NCBI GenBank assembly: GCA_025934025.1
Contig: JAICYU010000013.1
Coordinates: 1-35,276 of the forward strand
Length of the DNA: 35,276 nt
Reading direction: 5' to 3'
Source: Terriglobales bacterium
GTDB taxonomy: Bacteria > Acidobacteriota > Terriglobia > Terriglobales > Acidobacteriaceae
This document shows, in pieces, positions 7,715-21,989 of the stretch. Position 1 is the first letter of the stretch. The number at the start of each line of letters is the position of its first letter. Made by a program: the position numbers and the translations under genes. The notes below the pieces were generated by a model, which was not told the origin of the DNA, ran no database searches, and saw nothing but the letters and a program-made list of their open reading frames with translations.

Positions 7715-7737
7715 TCAGCGCCCGCCGCTTGCAGAAT
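7708..7737 (+). promoter_or_regulatory. Predicted promoter of the selenoprotein gene
   Basis: TTGACA (7708-7713) is a perfect -35 box, followed after 18 bp by CAGAAT (7732-7737), four of six matches to TATAAT. Transcription would start at about 7744-7745, the first base of the in-frame ATG at 7745, giving a leaderless message. It shares its -35 region with the opposite mlaE promoter, so the two genes may compete for or share control. Confidence 0.4.
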
Positions 7738-7744
7738 GTGCCGC

Positions 7745-8275
7745 ATGGCGGAATCGTTCAGCAGCAGGTTGGCCAACATTACCCTCCCCGATGTGGATGG
7801 CCGTCCCGTTCGCCTGGGATCGCTTTGGAGTGACGCGCCCGCAGTGGTGGTATTTCTGCGCCATTATGGTTGAATTTTCTGCGGAGAGCACGTCGCGCAG
7901 TTGCGCGATCACGAGCAGGAATTTCGCAGCAAGGGAGCGCGGCTAGCCGCAGTTGGTTTGGGCGATCCGAACTACGCGCGACTCTTCCGCGAGAAGACAG
8001 GAATCACGTTCCCTCTTTTAATAGATGAGAACCGGCAAGCATATAAAACCATTGGTCTGCGCAGCGCCTCTTTGTTGCATCTCCTTCGCCGCGACAACAT
8101 GCGGGCCCGCAAGCGCGCCAAAGCGGCCGGACACAAGCAGCACCGGCTGGGGAAGGATCCCTTCCAACTTGGCGGAAGCTTTGTGTTTGCACCGGGGGAC
8201 GTGGACCGCTTCGTCCATTTGAGCAAAACGTTCGGCGACAACGCTTCACCTACGGACCTGCTGACCGCGATCTGA
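7745..8275 (+). CDS. Peroxiredoxin-like (AhpC/TSA_2) selenoprotein, UGA read as Sec43
   Basis: A 176-aa thioredoxin-fold protein if the TGA at 7871-7873 is read as selenocysteine. Frame continuity is exact on both sides: upstream LPDVDGRPVRLGSLW and AVVVFLRHYG, then TGA, then IFCGEHVAQLRDHEQEF, AAVGLGDPNYARLFREKTG and the C-terminal LGGSFVFAPG and FGDN segments. These match the AhpC/TSA antioxidant family (PF13911/PRXL2-like), whose active site is a CxxC after FLRHxG. The TGA takes the first Cys position, giving UxxC with C46. Such proteins are thiol oxidoreductases or peroxidases. ATG 7745 is preferred; ATG 7736 is also in frame, and the frame is closed upstream by TGA at 7709. No Shine-Dalgarno sequence. 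The stop abuts the convergent rsmB stop. Alternatives are a sequencing error or a pseudogene, but no other lesion is present. Confidence 0.82.
7874..7900 (+). promoter_or_regulatory. Candidate bacterial SECIS hairpin just after the UGA
   Basis: Immediately downstream of the in-frame TGA the mRNA can fold CTGCGGA (7879-7885) against TCGCGCAG (7893-7900), seven pairs with a single bulged G at 7895, leaving a seven-base loop GAGCACG (7886-7892). Bacterial SECIS elements are coding-region hairpins shortly 3' of the UGA with a guanosine among the first two loop bases and often a bulge, and they bind SelB. This hairpin has those features. The UGA-to-loop distance (12 bases between) is at the short end of what is expected. 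It was folded by eye only. Confidence 0.5.
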
Positions 8276-9589
8276 TCAGTTCTTTTCCATGATGGCGGCG
8301 AAGAAACCGTCGCAGAGATGCACACCGGGTATGGTGCGCAAGAAGTCTTCGCGAACCAGGGTCGCAGTATCCCGCCAAACGAGTTCTCCTGATCTGCGCA
8401 ACCGTTGCAGCTCTTCGGATACCGCGATCAGGTGAAAATCAGCCTTTGCCTTGAGGCACTCCGCGACCACTTCTTCGTTCTCTTCCGTTTCGAGTGAGCA
8501 AGTGGAGTAGACCACGCGACCGCCGCTCGCCACATGCTTCATAGCTGCGTTGAGGATGGCGATTTGTCGAGCACGAAGATTGGGGATGTCCGCCGGCCTA
8601 AGCCGCCATTTGATCTCCGGATTGCGTGCCAGCGTGCCTGTGCCGGAGCAAGGAACGTCTGCCAGTACGCGGTCAAACTCCGCTGAGAAGGGAAGCTGCA
8701 GCGCGTCCGCGGTGAGCACCCGGACGTTCTGCTGCGGAGCCATGCGCCGCAGCAGGCGTGCGCGATGAGGATGCAGCTCTGCGGCGACGATCTCCGCTTC
8801 AGGAAGCCGCGTCGCCAACGCAGCCGTCTTTCCTCCAGGCGCAGCACAGCAGTCGAGAATTCGCTTGCCGCTGCCCACAAGAGCGGCCACAAGCTGTGAG
8901 CCTTCATCCTGGATAGCGACTTTGCCCTCCCGAAACGCAGAAATGCGCGTCACATCGCCCGCTATCACGCGGCGGGCATCATGCAGGAGAGATCCCGCCG
9001 TCGTCTGAATGCCCTGTTCACCCAGCAAAACCTCATCATCAGGATTCGTGAGCCGCAGAACCGTAGCCGGAACCTGCTGATTGTAAGCGCATATCCCGGT
9101 CGCAAACTCACCCAACTGCGCTTGCCAGCGCTGAACCAGCCATTCCGGATGAGCGAATCTCTGGGCCAGACTACCTGCCGAAGCAGCTTTCTCGCGAGGC
9201 GCCGGATGCACGGCCAGCTTGCGCGCGATGGCGTTCACCATGCCCGCAGCAGAGCGTTTGCGAGCGCGCTTCACCAGGTCTACCGTGTCGTTTACCACCG
9301 CGTGGGACGGGACCCGGCTGAGGAATGAAAGCTGGTAGGCCGCGGTTCGAAGCGCAGTAAGAACTTCAAGATCAAACCTGGCGAGCGGCGCCGAGCTGAA
9401 GTTCGAGATCTGCTCATCCAGAAATGACCGCCAGCGCAGCACGCCCATTACGATTTCAGTTGTCAGATTGCGATCAGGCTCTGAAAGCTCATCCAGCAAT
9501 GCGGAGTGCAGCAACTCGACAGCATAGGCCTGCTCGCGTTCCACCCGTAGAAGAATGTCAAAAGCGGCGGTGCGCGCGGGAGCAGGCAT
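8276..9589 (-). CDS. rsmB: 16S rRNA (cytosine-967-C5)-methyltransferase
   Basis: A 437-aa RsmB/Sun protein. Residues 1-130 form the NusB-like RNA-binding domain (LLRVEREQAYAVELL, VLTALRTAAYQL, VPSHAVVNDTVDLVK). The SAM-dependent domain shows DCCAAPGGKT (246-255), DVPCSGTGTLARNPEIKW with C314, and YSTCSLE with catalytic-type C364, the two-cysteine signature of RNA m5C methyltransferases. The frame runs 30 codons further upstream inside fmt, but the family start is the ATG at 9589, one base after the fmt stop. Last gene of the aroC-def-fmt-rsmB cluster. Its stop directly abuts the stop of the convergent selenoprotein gene, leaving no space for a terminator between them. Confidence 0.95.
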   Translation of the reverse strand: MPAPARTAAFDILLRVEREQAYAVELLHSALLDELSEPDRNLTTEIVMGVLRWRSFLDEQISNFSSAPLARFDLEVLTALRTAAYQLSFLSRVPSHAVVNDTVDLVKRARKRSAAGMVNAIARKLAVHPAPREKAASAGSLAQRFAHPEWLVQRWQAQLGEFATGICAYNQQVPATVLRLTNPDDEVLLGEQGIQTTAGSLLHDARRVIAGDVTRISAFREGKVAIQDEGSQLVAALVGSGKRILDCCAAPGGKTAALATRLPEAEIVAAELHPHRARLLRRMAPQQNVRVLTADALQLPFSAEFDRVLADVPCSGTGTLARNPEIKWRLRPADIPNLRARQIAILNAAMKHVASGGRVVYSTCSLETEENEEVVAECLKAKADFHLIAVSEELQRLRRSGELVWRDTATLVREDFLRTIPGVHLCDGFFAAIMEKN

Positions 9590-18330: not shown

Positions 18331-18522
18331 ATGAGGATGAACGACGGCACTAAGCACAAGCATCCGCGACCTTTATCGGTTGAAGAACAGCACCATGAGG
18401 CCAGCCAGGACGATACGGGCAGGCTGGAGCGCTATTTGCGCCTTGCAGACAAGATGCTGGAAAGCGATGAGCATGAAGGCGAGCACCAGTCAGATGTCCG
18501 CCACATTCCCAAAGCAGCCTAG
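18331..18522 (+). CDS. Possible small hydrophilic protein
   Basis: A 63-aa (or 61-aa from the second ATG) reading frame rich in His, Asp and Glu (LSVEEQHHEASQDDTGRLERYLRLADKMLESDEHEGEHQ), with one predicted helix. There is no convincing ribosome site and I recognise no family. It ends on CTAG, sharing bases with the stop of the convergent 1156-aa gene. It may be real because composition is protein-like and it fills an otherwise empty gap, but it could be chance. Confidence 0.35.
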   Translation: MRMNDGTKHKHPRPLSVEEQHHEASQDDTGRLERYLRLADKMLESDEHEGEHQSDVRHIPKAA

Positions 18523-21500
18523 CGAACCTGTTCGGCGTGGATCTGCGTAACGCCGGCAGTGCGCTCCAACTTGTCCCAGGAAAACGGCTTTCCATCTACA
18601 GCACGCTTCACCGTTTTGATCAGGACCGCGGAGAACAGTTGCCGATAAGAGAAGCGCTGCAGCCAGAGATGCAGGAGAAGCTGGAAATCCTCGCCGCGTC
18701 CTTTTTCCCTCCGCTCCAAAAGAAATGCAAGAGCTGATGCAATGAAATCAATCGCCAGAAAGAGGACAAAGAACAGCACCAGTTGCTCAAAGCTGCGCGG
18801 ATCGGCGCTTTCCGGGTGGAAGAAGCGCGTGAGCAGATACATCACGGTGCTGAACGCGAACATGATGTCTATGAACGGCGAAAGCAGCGGGAGCAGAATC
18901 TGAAAGATGATGATGTTGGGCAACGCAATCCAGCCCAGCCGGCTGCGGCGACGAATGGTTGCTCCGTGTTTCCAGACCGCCTGGAGGATGCCAAACGACC
19001 AGCGGAAGCGCTGCCGCATCAGCCCCCGCGCTGTAGTGGGAGCTTCAGTGAAAGCGAGCGCACGATCTTCGTTAATGACGCGCCAGCCGCTCTCCAGCAA
19101 TGACATGGTGAGGTCGGCATCTTCCGCGACCGTGTCAGTGTGATAGCCTCCGGCGGCGCGAACGGCAGCCGTGCGCCAGGCCCCGATGGCTCCAGGAACG
19201 ACGCTGACCGCGCCGAATACGTTGAGGGCGCGGCGTTCAAAGTTCTGGCTGGTGATGTATTCAAGCGCCTGCCAGCGTGTCCACAGGTTCACGCGGTTCC
19301 CGACCTTCGCGTTTCCGGCAACGGCGCCGATTTTCGCGTCGGCAAAGTGCGGCACCAGCAGAGAAATGGCGTTCGGCGCAATCATTGTGTCGGCATCAAT
19401 GCCGACGTAGATTTCATCATCAGTAAACTTCAGCGCGTGATTCAGTGCTTCGGCCTTGCCGCCATTTTGCTTGGTGAGGAGCAGCACGCGTCCTGAAGCG
19501 ATTTCCGCGCGAAACTTCTTGCGTACCACCTCCGACGTTTCGTCGCTTGAGCCGTCATCAACCACGATAGTGCGCAACCGCGGGTAATCGGAGGCCAAGA
19601 CCGAACGGACCGTGTGCTCAATGACCTTCTCTTCGTTATAAGCGGGCACGATGACCGTCACCGCAGGCATGTAGCCCGGATCAGCCGCAGATGACGATTG
19701 CCGCAGCCGGTCATAAGTAGCCAGAGCGCCAATCCCCAGCAGTCGCCCGCTCATCAACACGTCGCCCAGAAAGAACACCAGGGCAATGAAATAGCCGAGC
19801 GCGTTTACCATGGTGAAAGTGGCGTCCTGAAGCCGCGCGGAGAGCACCTCGTCTGGCCCAAGCTCCGGCATCACATCGGCTCGAGTTTTGCCCATCAGCT
19901 CACTGAGCGGCACAATCTGGAAGCCTTGCGCGCGCAAGCCTTCGATGATGCGGGGAAGCGCAGCCACTGTGGCATCGCGGTTTCCGCCGCCATCGTGCAG
20001 AAGAATGATGTTGCCGCAAACGTCCGGCTGTCGGTCTTTGCAGGCGCTCGTGGCAAAGATGTTGGCCTGCTGCAGTACCGAGTTAACAATCTGGTCCGAC
20101 GTTCGGCCGCGCTGCCAGTCATTGGGGTCAATTTTCGAGCCAATCGTGATGTATCCCAGCTTCTGCACCGCTTCCACCGGTCGCACCTGGTCCGCAATAT
20201 CGGGCTCCTGATCAATCGAATAGGGCGGGCGAAAGAAGAGCGGCTTCACTCCCAATTTGCTGGCGAACAGACGTTCCGTGAGGTTCAGCTCAAAATCAAT
20301 GTAGCGTTGCGAGACTTCGCTGATGTCAGGATGGGTGAAGGTGTGGTTTCCGATGGTGTGGTCTTCTTCATAAACTCGCCGGGCAAGACGAGGAAATTTC
20401 TCGACTTCCAGACCGATCATGAAAAACGTGGCAGTCGCATTTTCGCGCTTGAGCACATCGAGAATGCGCGGTGTATTGGCCGGATCAGGCCCATCGTCAA
20501 ACGTAATGGCCACCTGCTTCGGGTGTGATCCGTACTGGTTAAGCTGGTACGGTTGCGGCAGCTCCAGCATCTTTTCCGAGGTTGCGAGCTTCGTGTCAGG
20601 ATCAATCGCAACCTGCCGCTCGCCCGCTTTGGGCTGGTGCTCAACGTAAAGAATGTCGCCATAACCTTCGCGATCTACATCCTCTCCGGCCGGCACGGCC
20701 GCCAATTTCTGCGCAGCATCAGGCTCGCCCGGATTGTCCCAGATCGTCCATAGCGAGCGGTCTTCCGAACCGAGCCGCCACAAGGCAAAGGTGCGGATTC
20801 CAAGCTGGCGTGCTGCCCGCATCTGGTTCATCGCAGTCACCGCATCCAGAAACCAGACCTGGTGCTCAACGCCGTCGTCTTCCACATAGCCGAAGTGTGG
20901 GTTCAGCGCGTCGGAGTGAAGGTCAATATCAGACTCGGATTCCGAGGCATGGAGCCATGCTTCCTGAACGTTATCGGTTTCCACGCTCTGGACCTTCCGG
21001 CTCTTTCCTTTGAGCGCCCAGTCATAGCCGTAATTTCCGACGGCGCAGATGATCTTGTTCTTTGGAATGTCTTTCAACGCCTGCTTCAGATTGGACATGA
21101 ACCAACTCTGGGCCGCGATCGGGCCCGGGCCGCTGGTGGTCTGGTGCTGGTCATAGTTCATGATCACCAGCCCATCAGAGCTCGCCGCCAGCCGCGCGTA
21201 ATCAAAGTCGCGATCGGAAACAGGAACGTTCACGTACAGCTTGAGATTGCGCGCGTGCAGGTCGCGGCCAAGCTCGTCAATCAGAGCCAGGAAGCCAGGC
21301 TGGGCGGCGAGAGGAATCTCTTCCAGATCAACCGAGGCGCCCTTGAAACGGTCGCTCGCCAGGTAGGCGAGAAGCTGAGAGCGGAAAGTCTGGCGCGCCG
21401 CCGGCGAATTGAGGAAGTCGCCCACATTGAGCCACTGCTTTGCGACAGGATCGAAGTTGTTGATCAGCGGGAAGACGTCTACGTTCGCTTTTTCCGAATG

Positions 21501-21989
21501 CAGGAATGGCATCACGCGATCATCGGCCGAGCGCACGTGTCCGTTCTGGATGACGGGAAAAAGGCGGTTAGTTTCATCCACGCTCTGAATGGCGCCATCA
21601 GGGCTTAACACATGCAGCCATTCGGGAAAGAGAATGTCTATCTGAGGGTAATATTCCTTGAGCGAGACAAAACTCGCCGCGTCCCAGGTGACGTAATAGG
21701 CCGCGCGGATGCCTTCATCTTCGTTCAGCACCACTTCAGAAGCGGCCCGGCCGCTCTTGCGATGCGTGCTCTTGGCCGCGGTTTTGTGGCGGCGCTCCCG
21801 TTCCTTCAATGACCGCAGGTTCTTCTTCTGCGCCGGCATGAGCAGCGGCGGCAGCGTCTCCGGCTGGAAGATTACTGTGACAGCAAAAAAGAGGACCAGC
21901 CCGGTGATGACCGCGCCGGCAATGTTGAAGAGCCAGCGCAAGCGCCCCCATCGCTTCCGCCCGGGATCATAAAAAACCTGTTTTGACAT
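18519..21989 (-). CDS. GH18-like / polysaccharide deacetylase / GT2 synthase fusion
   Basis: A 1156-aa membrane protein with three catalytic modules. An N-terminal helix (about 18-42) and a basic linker are followed by a GH18-like barrel (about 85-430; GASVDLEEI near 215-223 carries the DxxE-like acids). Next is a NodB/CE4 deacetylase (about 490-690; TFDDGPD near 497, GNHTFTHPD near 547, FRPPYS, LLHDGGGNRD), then a membrane helix (about 735-755). The GT2 domain (about 770-1000) shows VIVPAYNEE, VVDDGSSDE, DAD near 866, EDADLT near 956 and QRFRW near 995, the processive-synthase signature. C-terminal membrane helices follow. The order resembles a fusion of PgaB-like and PgaC-like activities, suggesting export and partial de-N-acetylation of a beta-linked hexosamine polymer. 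This is inferred, not shown. Confidence 0.9.
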   Translation of the reverse strand: MSKQVFYDPGRKRWGRLRWLFNIAGAVITGLVLFFAVTVIFQPETLPPLLMPAQKKNLRSLKERERRHKTAAKSTHRKSGRAASEVVLNEDEGIRAAYYVTWDAASFVSLKEYYPQIDILFPEWLHVLSPDGAIQSVDETNRLFPVIQNGHVRSADDRVMPFLHSEKANVDVFPLINNFDPVAKQWLNVGDFLNSPAARQTFRSQLLAYLASDRFKGASVDLEEIPLAAQPGFLALIDELGRDLHARNLKLYVNVPVSDRDFDYARLAASSDGLVIMNYDQHQTTSGPGPIAAQSWFMSNLKQALKDIPKNKIICAVGNYGYDWALKGKSRKVQSVETDNVQEAWLHASESESDIDLHSDALNPHFGYVEDDGVEHQVWFLDAVTAMNQMRAARQLGIRTFALWRLGSEDRSLWTIWDNPGEPDAAQKLAAVPAGEDVDREGYGDILYVEHQPKAGERQVAIDPDTKLATSEKMLELPQPYQLNQYGSHPKQVAITFDDGPDPANTPRILDVLKRENATATFFMIGLEVEKFPRLARRVYEEDHTIGNHTFTHPDISEVSQRYIDFELNLTERLFASKLGVKPLFFRPPYSIDQEPDIADQVRPVEAVQKLGYITIGSKIDPNDWQRGRTSDQIVNSVLQQANIFATSACKDRQPDVCGNIILLHDGGGNRDATVAALPRIIEGLRAQGFQIVPLSELMGKTRADVMPELGPDEVLSARLQDATFTMVNALGYFIALVFFLGDVLMSGRLLGIGALATYDRLRQSSSAADPGYMPAVTVIVPAYNEEKVIEHTVRSVLASDYPRLRTIVVDDGSSDETSEVVRKKFRAEIASGRVLLLTKQNGGKAEALNHALKFTDDEIYVGIDADTMIAPNAISLLVPHFADAKIGAVAGNAKVGNRVNLWTRWQALEYITSQNFERRALNVFGAVSVVPGAIGAWRTAAVRAAGGYHTDTVAEDADLTMSLLESGWRVINEDRALAFTEAPTTARGLMRQRFRWSFGILQAVWKHGATIRRRSRLGWIALPNIIIFQILLPLLSPFIDIMFAFSTVMYLLTRFFHPESADPRSFEQLVLFFVLFLAIDFIASALAFLLERREKGRGEDFQLLLHLWLQRFSYRQLFSAVLIKTVKRAVDGKPFSWDKLERTAGVTQIHAEQVR

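Follow-up and report, generated by a model that had tools for sequence, protein, structure and literature searches.

The gene described here lies in a 35,276-nucleotide stretch of DNA from a Terriglobales bacterium (hereafter the window; contig C230 of the draft genome) and is, as far as sequence comparison can tell, very probably an intact bacterial selenoprotein gene of the SelL-related or peroxiredoxin (Prx)-like family, because an in-frame UGA at codon 43 replaces the first cysteine of a CxxC pair, a conserved hairpin follows that codon, and tRNA-Sec, SelB and SelA are present in the same genome (Table 1). The finding restores in full a gene of which ordinary callers of open reading frames (ORFs) keep only the last 124 residues, adds to Acidobacteriota a well-supported selenocysteine (Sec) gene and gives a comparison of Sec and Cys inside one bacterial family with a structurally solved human relative; knowledge of Sec decoding itself is unchanged by it.

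Table 1. Positions, in window coordinates, of the predicted selenoprotein gene and the features belonging to it
Feature	Position	Strand	Remarks
Predicted selenoprotein gene	7745..8275	+	176 residues, Sec at 43; SelL-related (NF040769); AhpC-TSA_2 domain
In-frame UGA, codon 43, predicted Sec, first residue of UxxC	7871..7873	+	TGA in orthologs, Cys in family
Cys46 codon, putative resolving cysteine of UxxC	7880..7882	+	Ortholog alignment; Cys47 of human prostamide/prostaglandin F synthase (PM/PGFS)
Predicted SECIS-type mRNA hairpin	7893..7908	+	6-bp stem 7893-7898/7903-7908, loop AGUU 7899-7902
C-terminal ORF, TTG start, 124 aa; no separate gene	7901..8275	+	Standard ORF list
Terminal ordinary stop (TGA) of the selenoprotein gene	8273-8275	+	
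Alternative candidate start, in-frame ATG three codons upstream of ATG 7745	7736..7738	+	

Reading the frame from the ATG at 7745 to its terminal TGA confirmed the statement of the original prediction that a lone TGA breaks an otherwise continuous frame, since codon 43 is the sole internal stop, and the sequence around it is FLRHYG-U-IFCGEH, i.e. a UxxC pair. The expectation that a gene caller would give only a C-terminal piece starting at 7901 also proved correct, that piece being an entry of the standard ORF list. The candidate start upstream of ATG 7745 recurs in four of the ortholog loci (L027, L029, L031 and L051). Openness of the frame was considered as evidence for Sec and rejected: across the six frames of the window there are 45 stops with at least 40 open codons before them and at least 100 after, 28 of which are TGA (the one at 7871 included), so that the openness seen here is not above chance. 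The claim that the gene is read through with Sec rather than broken must accordingly be divided, as the argument that no other lesion exists fails against these 45 similar stops, whilst comparison across genomes upholds read-through; the signal rises above chance because the TGA is conserved at the same codon, and not because the frame is open.

Among 397 genomes of the order, the gene found a match at E<=1e-20 in 24 (its own genome included), and in 24 of the 25 match rows there is a single stop, always a TGA; the remaining row, which lies wholly 3' of codon 43, comes from a gene divided between two contigs, of which it is the downstream piece. No match at this threshold among the 397 genomes reaches codon 43 without the TGA. 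At the level of individual loci, related genomes were found to carry TGA at the identical codon in 26 of the 26 loci that reach it, a count that includes the window's own locus, comprises 25 distinct loci (L051 repeats L029) and leaves out L049, where codon 43 is not reached. In each ortholog the TGA was chosen by its best surrounding context, with 16-18 of 18 letters alike, and that context reads [FL]LRH[YW]GUIFC throughout the 26 loci. Alignment of 24 rows (alignment A2, from which L049, L050 and L051 were left out) places the 23 other proteins at 55-77% identity to the window protein, and positions 43 and 46 are its only invariant Cys/Sec columns. A scan of named genome contigs returned two relatives, both Acidobacteria metagenome genomes, at 76% and 74% identity.

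Beyond these orthologs, the NCBI model NF040769 gave 66 matches in 61 of 396 genomes of the phylum, with a match over cut-off in 36 genomes. One TGA interrupts 42 of the matches, two TGA interrupt four, and 20 are free of stops; neither TAA nor TAG occurs in any of the 66, all 46 interrupted matches being interrupted by TGA. All 20 stop-free homologues have Cys (TGC/TGT) at the Sec column, which is the residue that the original prediction called for. Of these, 18 were found by a motif search that admitted only U or C at the column and could not show other residues, and two (L100 and L106) were read separately with the residue left free; all of the places lie in family context. One stop-free form, L100, is CxxS, with Ser in the second place. 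Loci were also fetched for 24 of the 44 rows of distant TGA-bearing members (besides G000 and G041), and TGA sits at the column in all 24, three of which (L062, L065 and L073) are UxxU. Members of NF040769 in Acidobacteriota carry UxxC, UxxU or CxxC in the same place. It had been proposed that the column be read in homologues of PF13911; Cys was indeed found, but PF13911 matches residues 53-159 only, so the CxxC column must be read in NF040769 (residues 11-175) or in homologues.

The match of the window protein to NF040769, named SelL-related redox protein, is marginal: with Cys standing in for Sec, residues 11-175 score 121.4 bits against a cut-off of 120, and the six-frame scan gave 112.3 bits, below it. 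Matches to PF13911 (61.8-61.9 bits, cut-off 27) and PF00578 (51.9-52 bits, cut-off 26) are clear of their thresholds. What the gene shares with the NF040769 members is a UxxC, UxxU or CxxC pair at the same place, and its subgroup differs from some of them in having UIFC, not UxxU. SelL is a UxxU protein. Assignment to SelL in the strict sense was rejected, as UxxC is found in all ortholog loci (26 reaching the codon) and the second position is Cys in 24 of the 24 aligned rows; by NCBI naming, SelL is nevertheless a related family.

The protein family is already known, NF040769 being curated by NCBI and Prx-like bacterial selenoproteins with UxxC or UxxU being in print, and the gene is a further member of it. 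Tables in two papers (PMC9312934, PMC13188914) include a Prx-like thiol:disulfide oxidoreductase (PF00578, UxxC/UxxU) among prokaryotic selenoproteins and name WP_010940744.1 as its example; as far as these table entries go, the window gene is like it in its UxxC and its PF00578 match. The table of PMC9312934 further has an AhpC/TSA family selenoprotein (PF13911) with UxxS, which resembles the window gene in the PF13911 match and differs from it in the motif, UxxC in the latter. SelL is named a Prx-like protein in a passage of PMC2398784. For the phylum, passages of a 2006 survey (PMC1794560) give Acidobacteria four selenoproteins of three families, and an entry in a 2025 tool paper (PMC12013277) gives Occallatibacter riparius (Acidobacteriota) three known selenoproteins. 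The word 'acidobacteri' has no occurrence in the texts of PMC9312934 and PMC13188914, and the open-access literature searched yielded no paper devoted to this acidobacterial gene.

A bacterial SECIS element is a hairpin that closely follows the UGA and carries a G in the loop. The hairpin predicted here fits this rule in both respects and draws its support from synonymous constraint and covariation. Its stability in the window alone does not exceed that of shuffled sequences (z -1.33; 21 of 200 shuffles fold as well). Across 24 orthologs (L050, half a gene, and L051, which repeats L029, were left out), codon entropy over codons +1 to +12 falls to 0.42 of expectation in 9 columns, compared with 0.87 in 44 others (Mann-Whitney p 4e-4). 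For the Leu encoded at the loop, 23 of the 24 use TTG and one uses TTA, although TTG makes up 79 of the 509 Leu codons in these genes overall, and the loop is AGTT or GGTT in 25 of 25 orthologs. Covariation within the close orthologs alone is weak, its score being reached by 10 of 500 shuffles and its number of paired cells by 70 of 500. In a set of 36 sequences, neither 500 shuffles nor any slid version matched the stem covariation score, and changes on both sides occur in five of the six stem pairs, a number reached by 3 of 500 shuffles. The signal became strong only in this enlarged set, which takes in those distant Sec members (11 of 24) that have AGTT at the loop place, a choice made by loop letters that leaves the stem unselected.

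The hairpin is conserved in only part of the family, because its register is not shared by 13 of the 24 distant Sec members: the loop letters are absent there in those 13, and are present in none of 18 Cys forms. At the register, 79 of 144 cells are paired among the distant Sec members and 68 of 108 among the Cys forms, a comparison that counts against the hairpin. Mean folding energy is -10.5 in 25 ortholog Sec sequences, -10.4 in 24 distant Sec sequences and -8.7 in 18 Cys forms (p 0.004 and 0.02), a difference that carries little weight because the sequences are related; L051 was left out of both the energy and the register comparisons.

Structural modelling suggests that the product folds as a peroxiredoxin-like or PRXL2 protein. 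In the AlphaFold model, computed with Cys replacing Sec (pLDDT 92.4, pTM 0.89), residue 43 lies just before a helix spanning residues 44-55. Human PM/PGFS (PRXL2B) is the best match in the PDB both by fold (9us9 and 9usa, TM 0.81/0.88) and by sequence, when searched with the ortholog profile (E 4.6e-14), and chains of ResA, Bcp and AhpE rank next in fold and sequence matches. Residues 43 and 46 of the model align with Cys44 and Cys47 of the human enzyme, the pair given as mutated in the title of 9usa, so that the predicted model has both the PRXL2 fold and its placement of the CxxC pair. Identity in the fold alignment is 26%, and the human protein has Cys where Sec is predicted in the window protein.

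From this a catalytic cycle may be outlined. SelB would bring Sec-tRNA to the UGA of codon 43 owing to the hairpin, and translation would continue past it to the real stop, which is also a TGA. The selenolate of Sec43 would then attack a peroxide or a disulfide, Cys46 would resolve the intermediate by forming a selenenyl-sulfide with Sec43, and a thioredoxin-type reductant would regenerate the enzyme. Such a cycle is proposed because residues 43 and 46 match Cys44/Cys47 of PM/PGFS and are the only invariant Cys/Sec columns. A peroxide or lipid peroxide is the somewhat favoured substrate, and a disulfide is the poorer candidate of the two. Within the selenoprotein reading, it is possible, if rather unlikely, that the protein is mainly a thiol-disulfide oxidoreductase like ResA and not a peroxidase: UxxC is a thioredoxin-type arrangement and ResA chains are among the best matches by fold and by sequence, whereas the top match in both searches is PM/PGFS, itself the reductase of an endoperoxide. 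A more ambitious proposal, to be taken as speculative, is that the gene encodes a selenium form of the prostamide/PRXL2 family in which Sec has been kept throughout the lineage, which reduces lipid peroxides or endoperoxides, and which is decoded via an AGUU-loop hairpin common to UxxC and UxxU members.

The selenoprotein reading was also set against the Sec machinery of the genome, a draft of 3,656,311 bases spread over 362 contigs, with a completeness of 97.3% and a contamination of 3.4%. Of the components whose presence was to be checked, tRNA-Sec (74 bits, cut-off 47; anticodon tca), selB (375 bits, cut-off 242; seemingly whole) and selA (499 bits, cut-off 268; truncated at a contig end) all exceed their cut-offs. 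The remaining one, selD, was not found in the 362 contigs: three matches below cut-off are ThiL, PurM and HypE by far better matches, and SelD of the same genus, used as a query against this genome, matched only the ThiL place. The gene next to selD in the relative G041 also occurs in this genome, where it is divided between the ends of two contigs, C30 and C327, and synteny with G041 revealed no selD beside it. The two contigs (C327 as locus L103, C30 as L104) share the middle of the split gene and are probably adjacent, since one gene runs over both ends with a shared middle part. Absence of selD is the main result against the Sec reading, and is most likely an assembly gap.

One must consider, however, that the strain may have lost Sec synthesis recently, with selD gone and the UGA now poorly read. 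This alternative is improbable. It accounts for a draft in which neither selD nor a piece of it was found and in which the selD neighbour known from G041 is assembled with no selD beside it, and the assembly, at 3.66 Mb, is small against the 3.7-6.9 Mb of eight other same-genus genomes with the gene. Against it, selB and tRNA-Sec seem complete, a contig end is all that truncates selA, the draft is in 362 contigs at 97.3% completeness, and no second stop has appeared in the window gene or in two further TGA-bearing redox frames of the genome.

Machinery and gene also go together across genomes. Of 24 genomes that carry the gene, 19 have a tRNA-Sec over cut-off, versus 5 of 20 that lack it (Fisher p 6e-4), and selD is in 20 of 24 versus 4 of 20 (Fisher p 5e-5), p values that are rough because the 20 gene-less genomes of this 44-genome sample are the first listed in the order scan and the genomes are related. 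At the thresholds used, tRNA-Sec was unseen in 5 and selD in 4 of the 24 gene-bearing genomes, and neither was detected in the Cys-form genomes G016, G029 and G030, whose genus holds five more Cys-form genomes. Several details of the machinery were noted in passing. Two tRNA-Sec matches exceed the cut-off in each of three genomes (G119, G135 and G396), and in G028 tRNA-Sec is present with selD absent at the threshold used. In relatives, selD is itself interrupted by one TGA in 23 of 25 selD rows, with AGUASK around the TGA in that of G041 (L101 2667-3704, minus strand), and G343 has two selD matches, one with a TGA and one without.

Less probable still, and very unlikely in absolute terms, is a pseudogene or sequencing error, with a Cys codon changed to a true stop in a gene that no longer works. 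The missing selD, which leaves the Sec pathway of this assembly incomplete, lends it some colour, but a dead gene would sit ill with the same TGA in 26 loci, where the 23 other proteins aligned are 55-77% identical to that of the window, and with interruptions across the family that are always TGA. Last, UGA read otherwise, as a reassigned codon (e.g. Trp) or by plain stop read-through, has the open frame itself and nothing else in its favour and is the least probable of all, as the gene's own stop and that of the convergent neighbour (8276-8278, minus strand) are both TGA, the 20 stop-free family matches carry Cys and not Trp, and a tRNA-Sec with anticodon tca is present.

Gene neighbours do not tell the substrate of the predicted selenoprotein. 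Those in the window, which from their sequences are taken to be MlaE, MlaF and RsmB, were sought in 27 ortholog loci (L001 and L027-L052, each with roughly 1.5 kb of flank, or 3 kb for two of them) and occur only in L001, the window's own. A protein of the SDR family (its identity named for L027) lies upstream in 8 of 26 loci (L027-L029, L031-L033, L050 and L051) and gives no functional clue.

Elsewhere in the same genome, a second TGA-bearing redox frame (L002 1150-1968; G000:C31:11808-12626) reads FYRGYWUPFC and matches PF00578 at 103.9 bits; 9 of 100 genomes of the family, its own included, match it at E<=1e-40, each with exactly one TGA. A third such frame, peroxiredoxin-like (L003 1381-1935; G000:C127), reads AFTGGUTKEM and matches PF00578 at 136.9 bits, and its closest NCBI model is PrxU, at 82.8 bits against a cut-off of 270. 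Farther along the window, an ORF of 1156 aa on the minus strand (18519-21989) gives the impression of combining, in a single chain, a part resembling glycoside hydrolases with a polysaccharide deacetylase and a glycosyltransferase of family 2.
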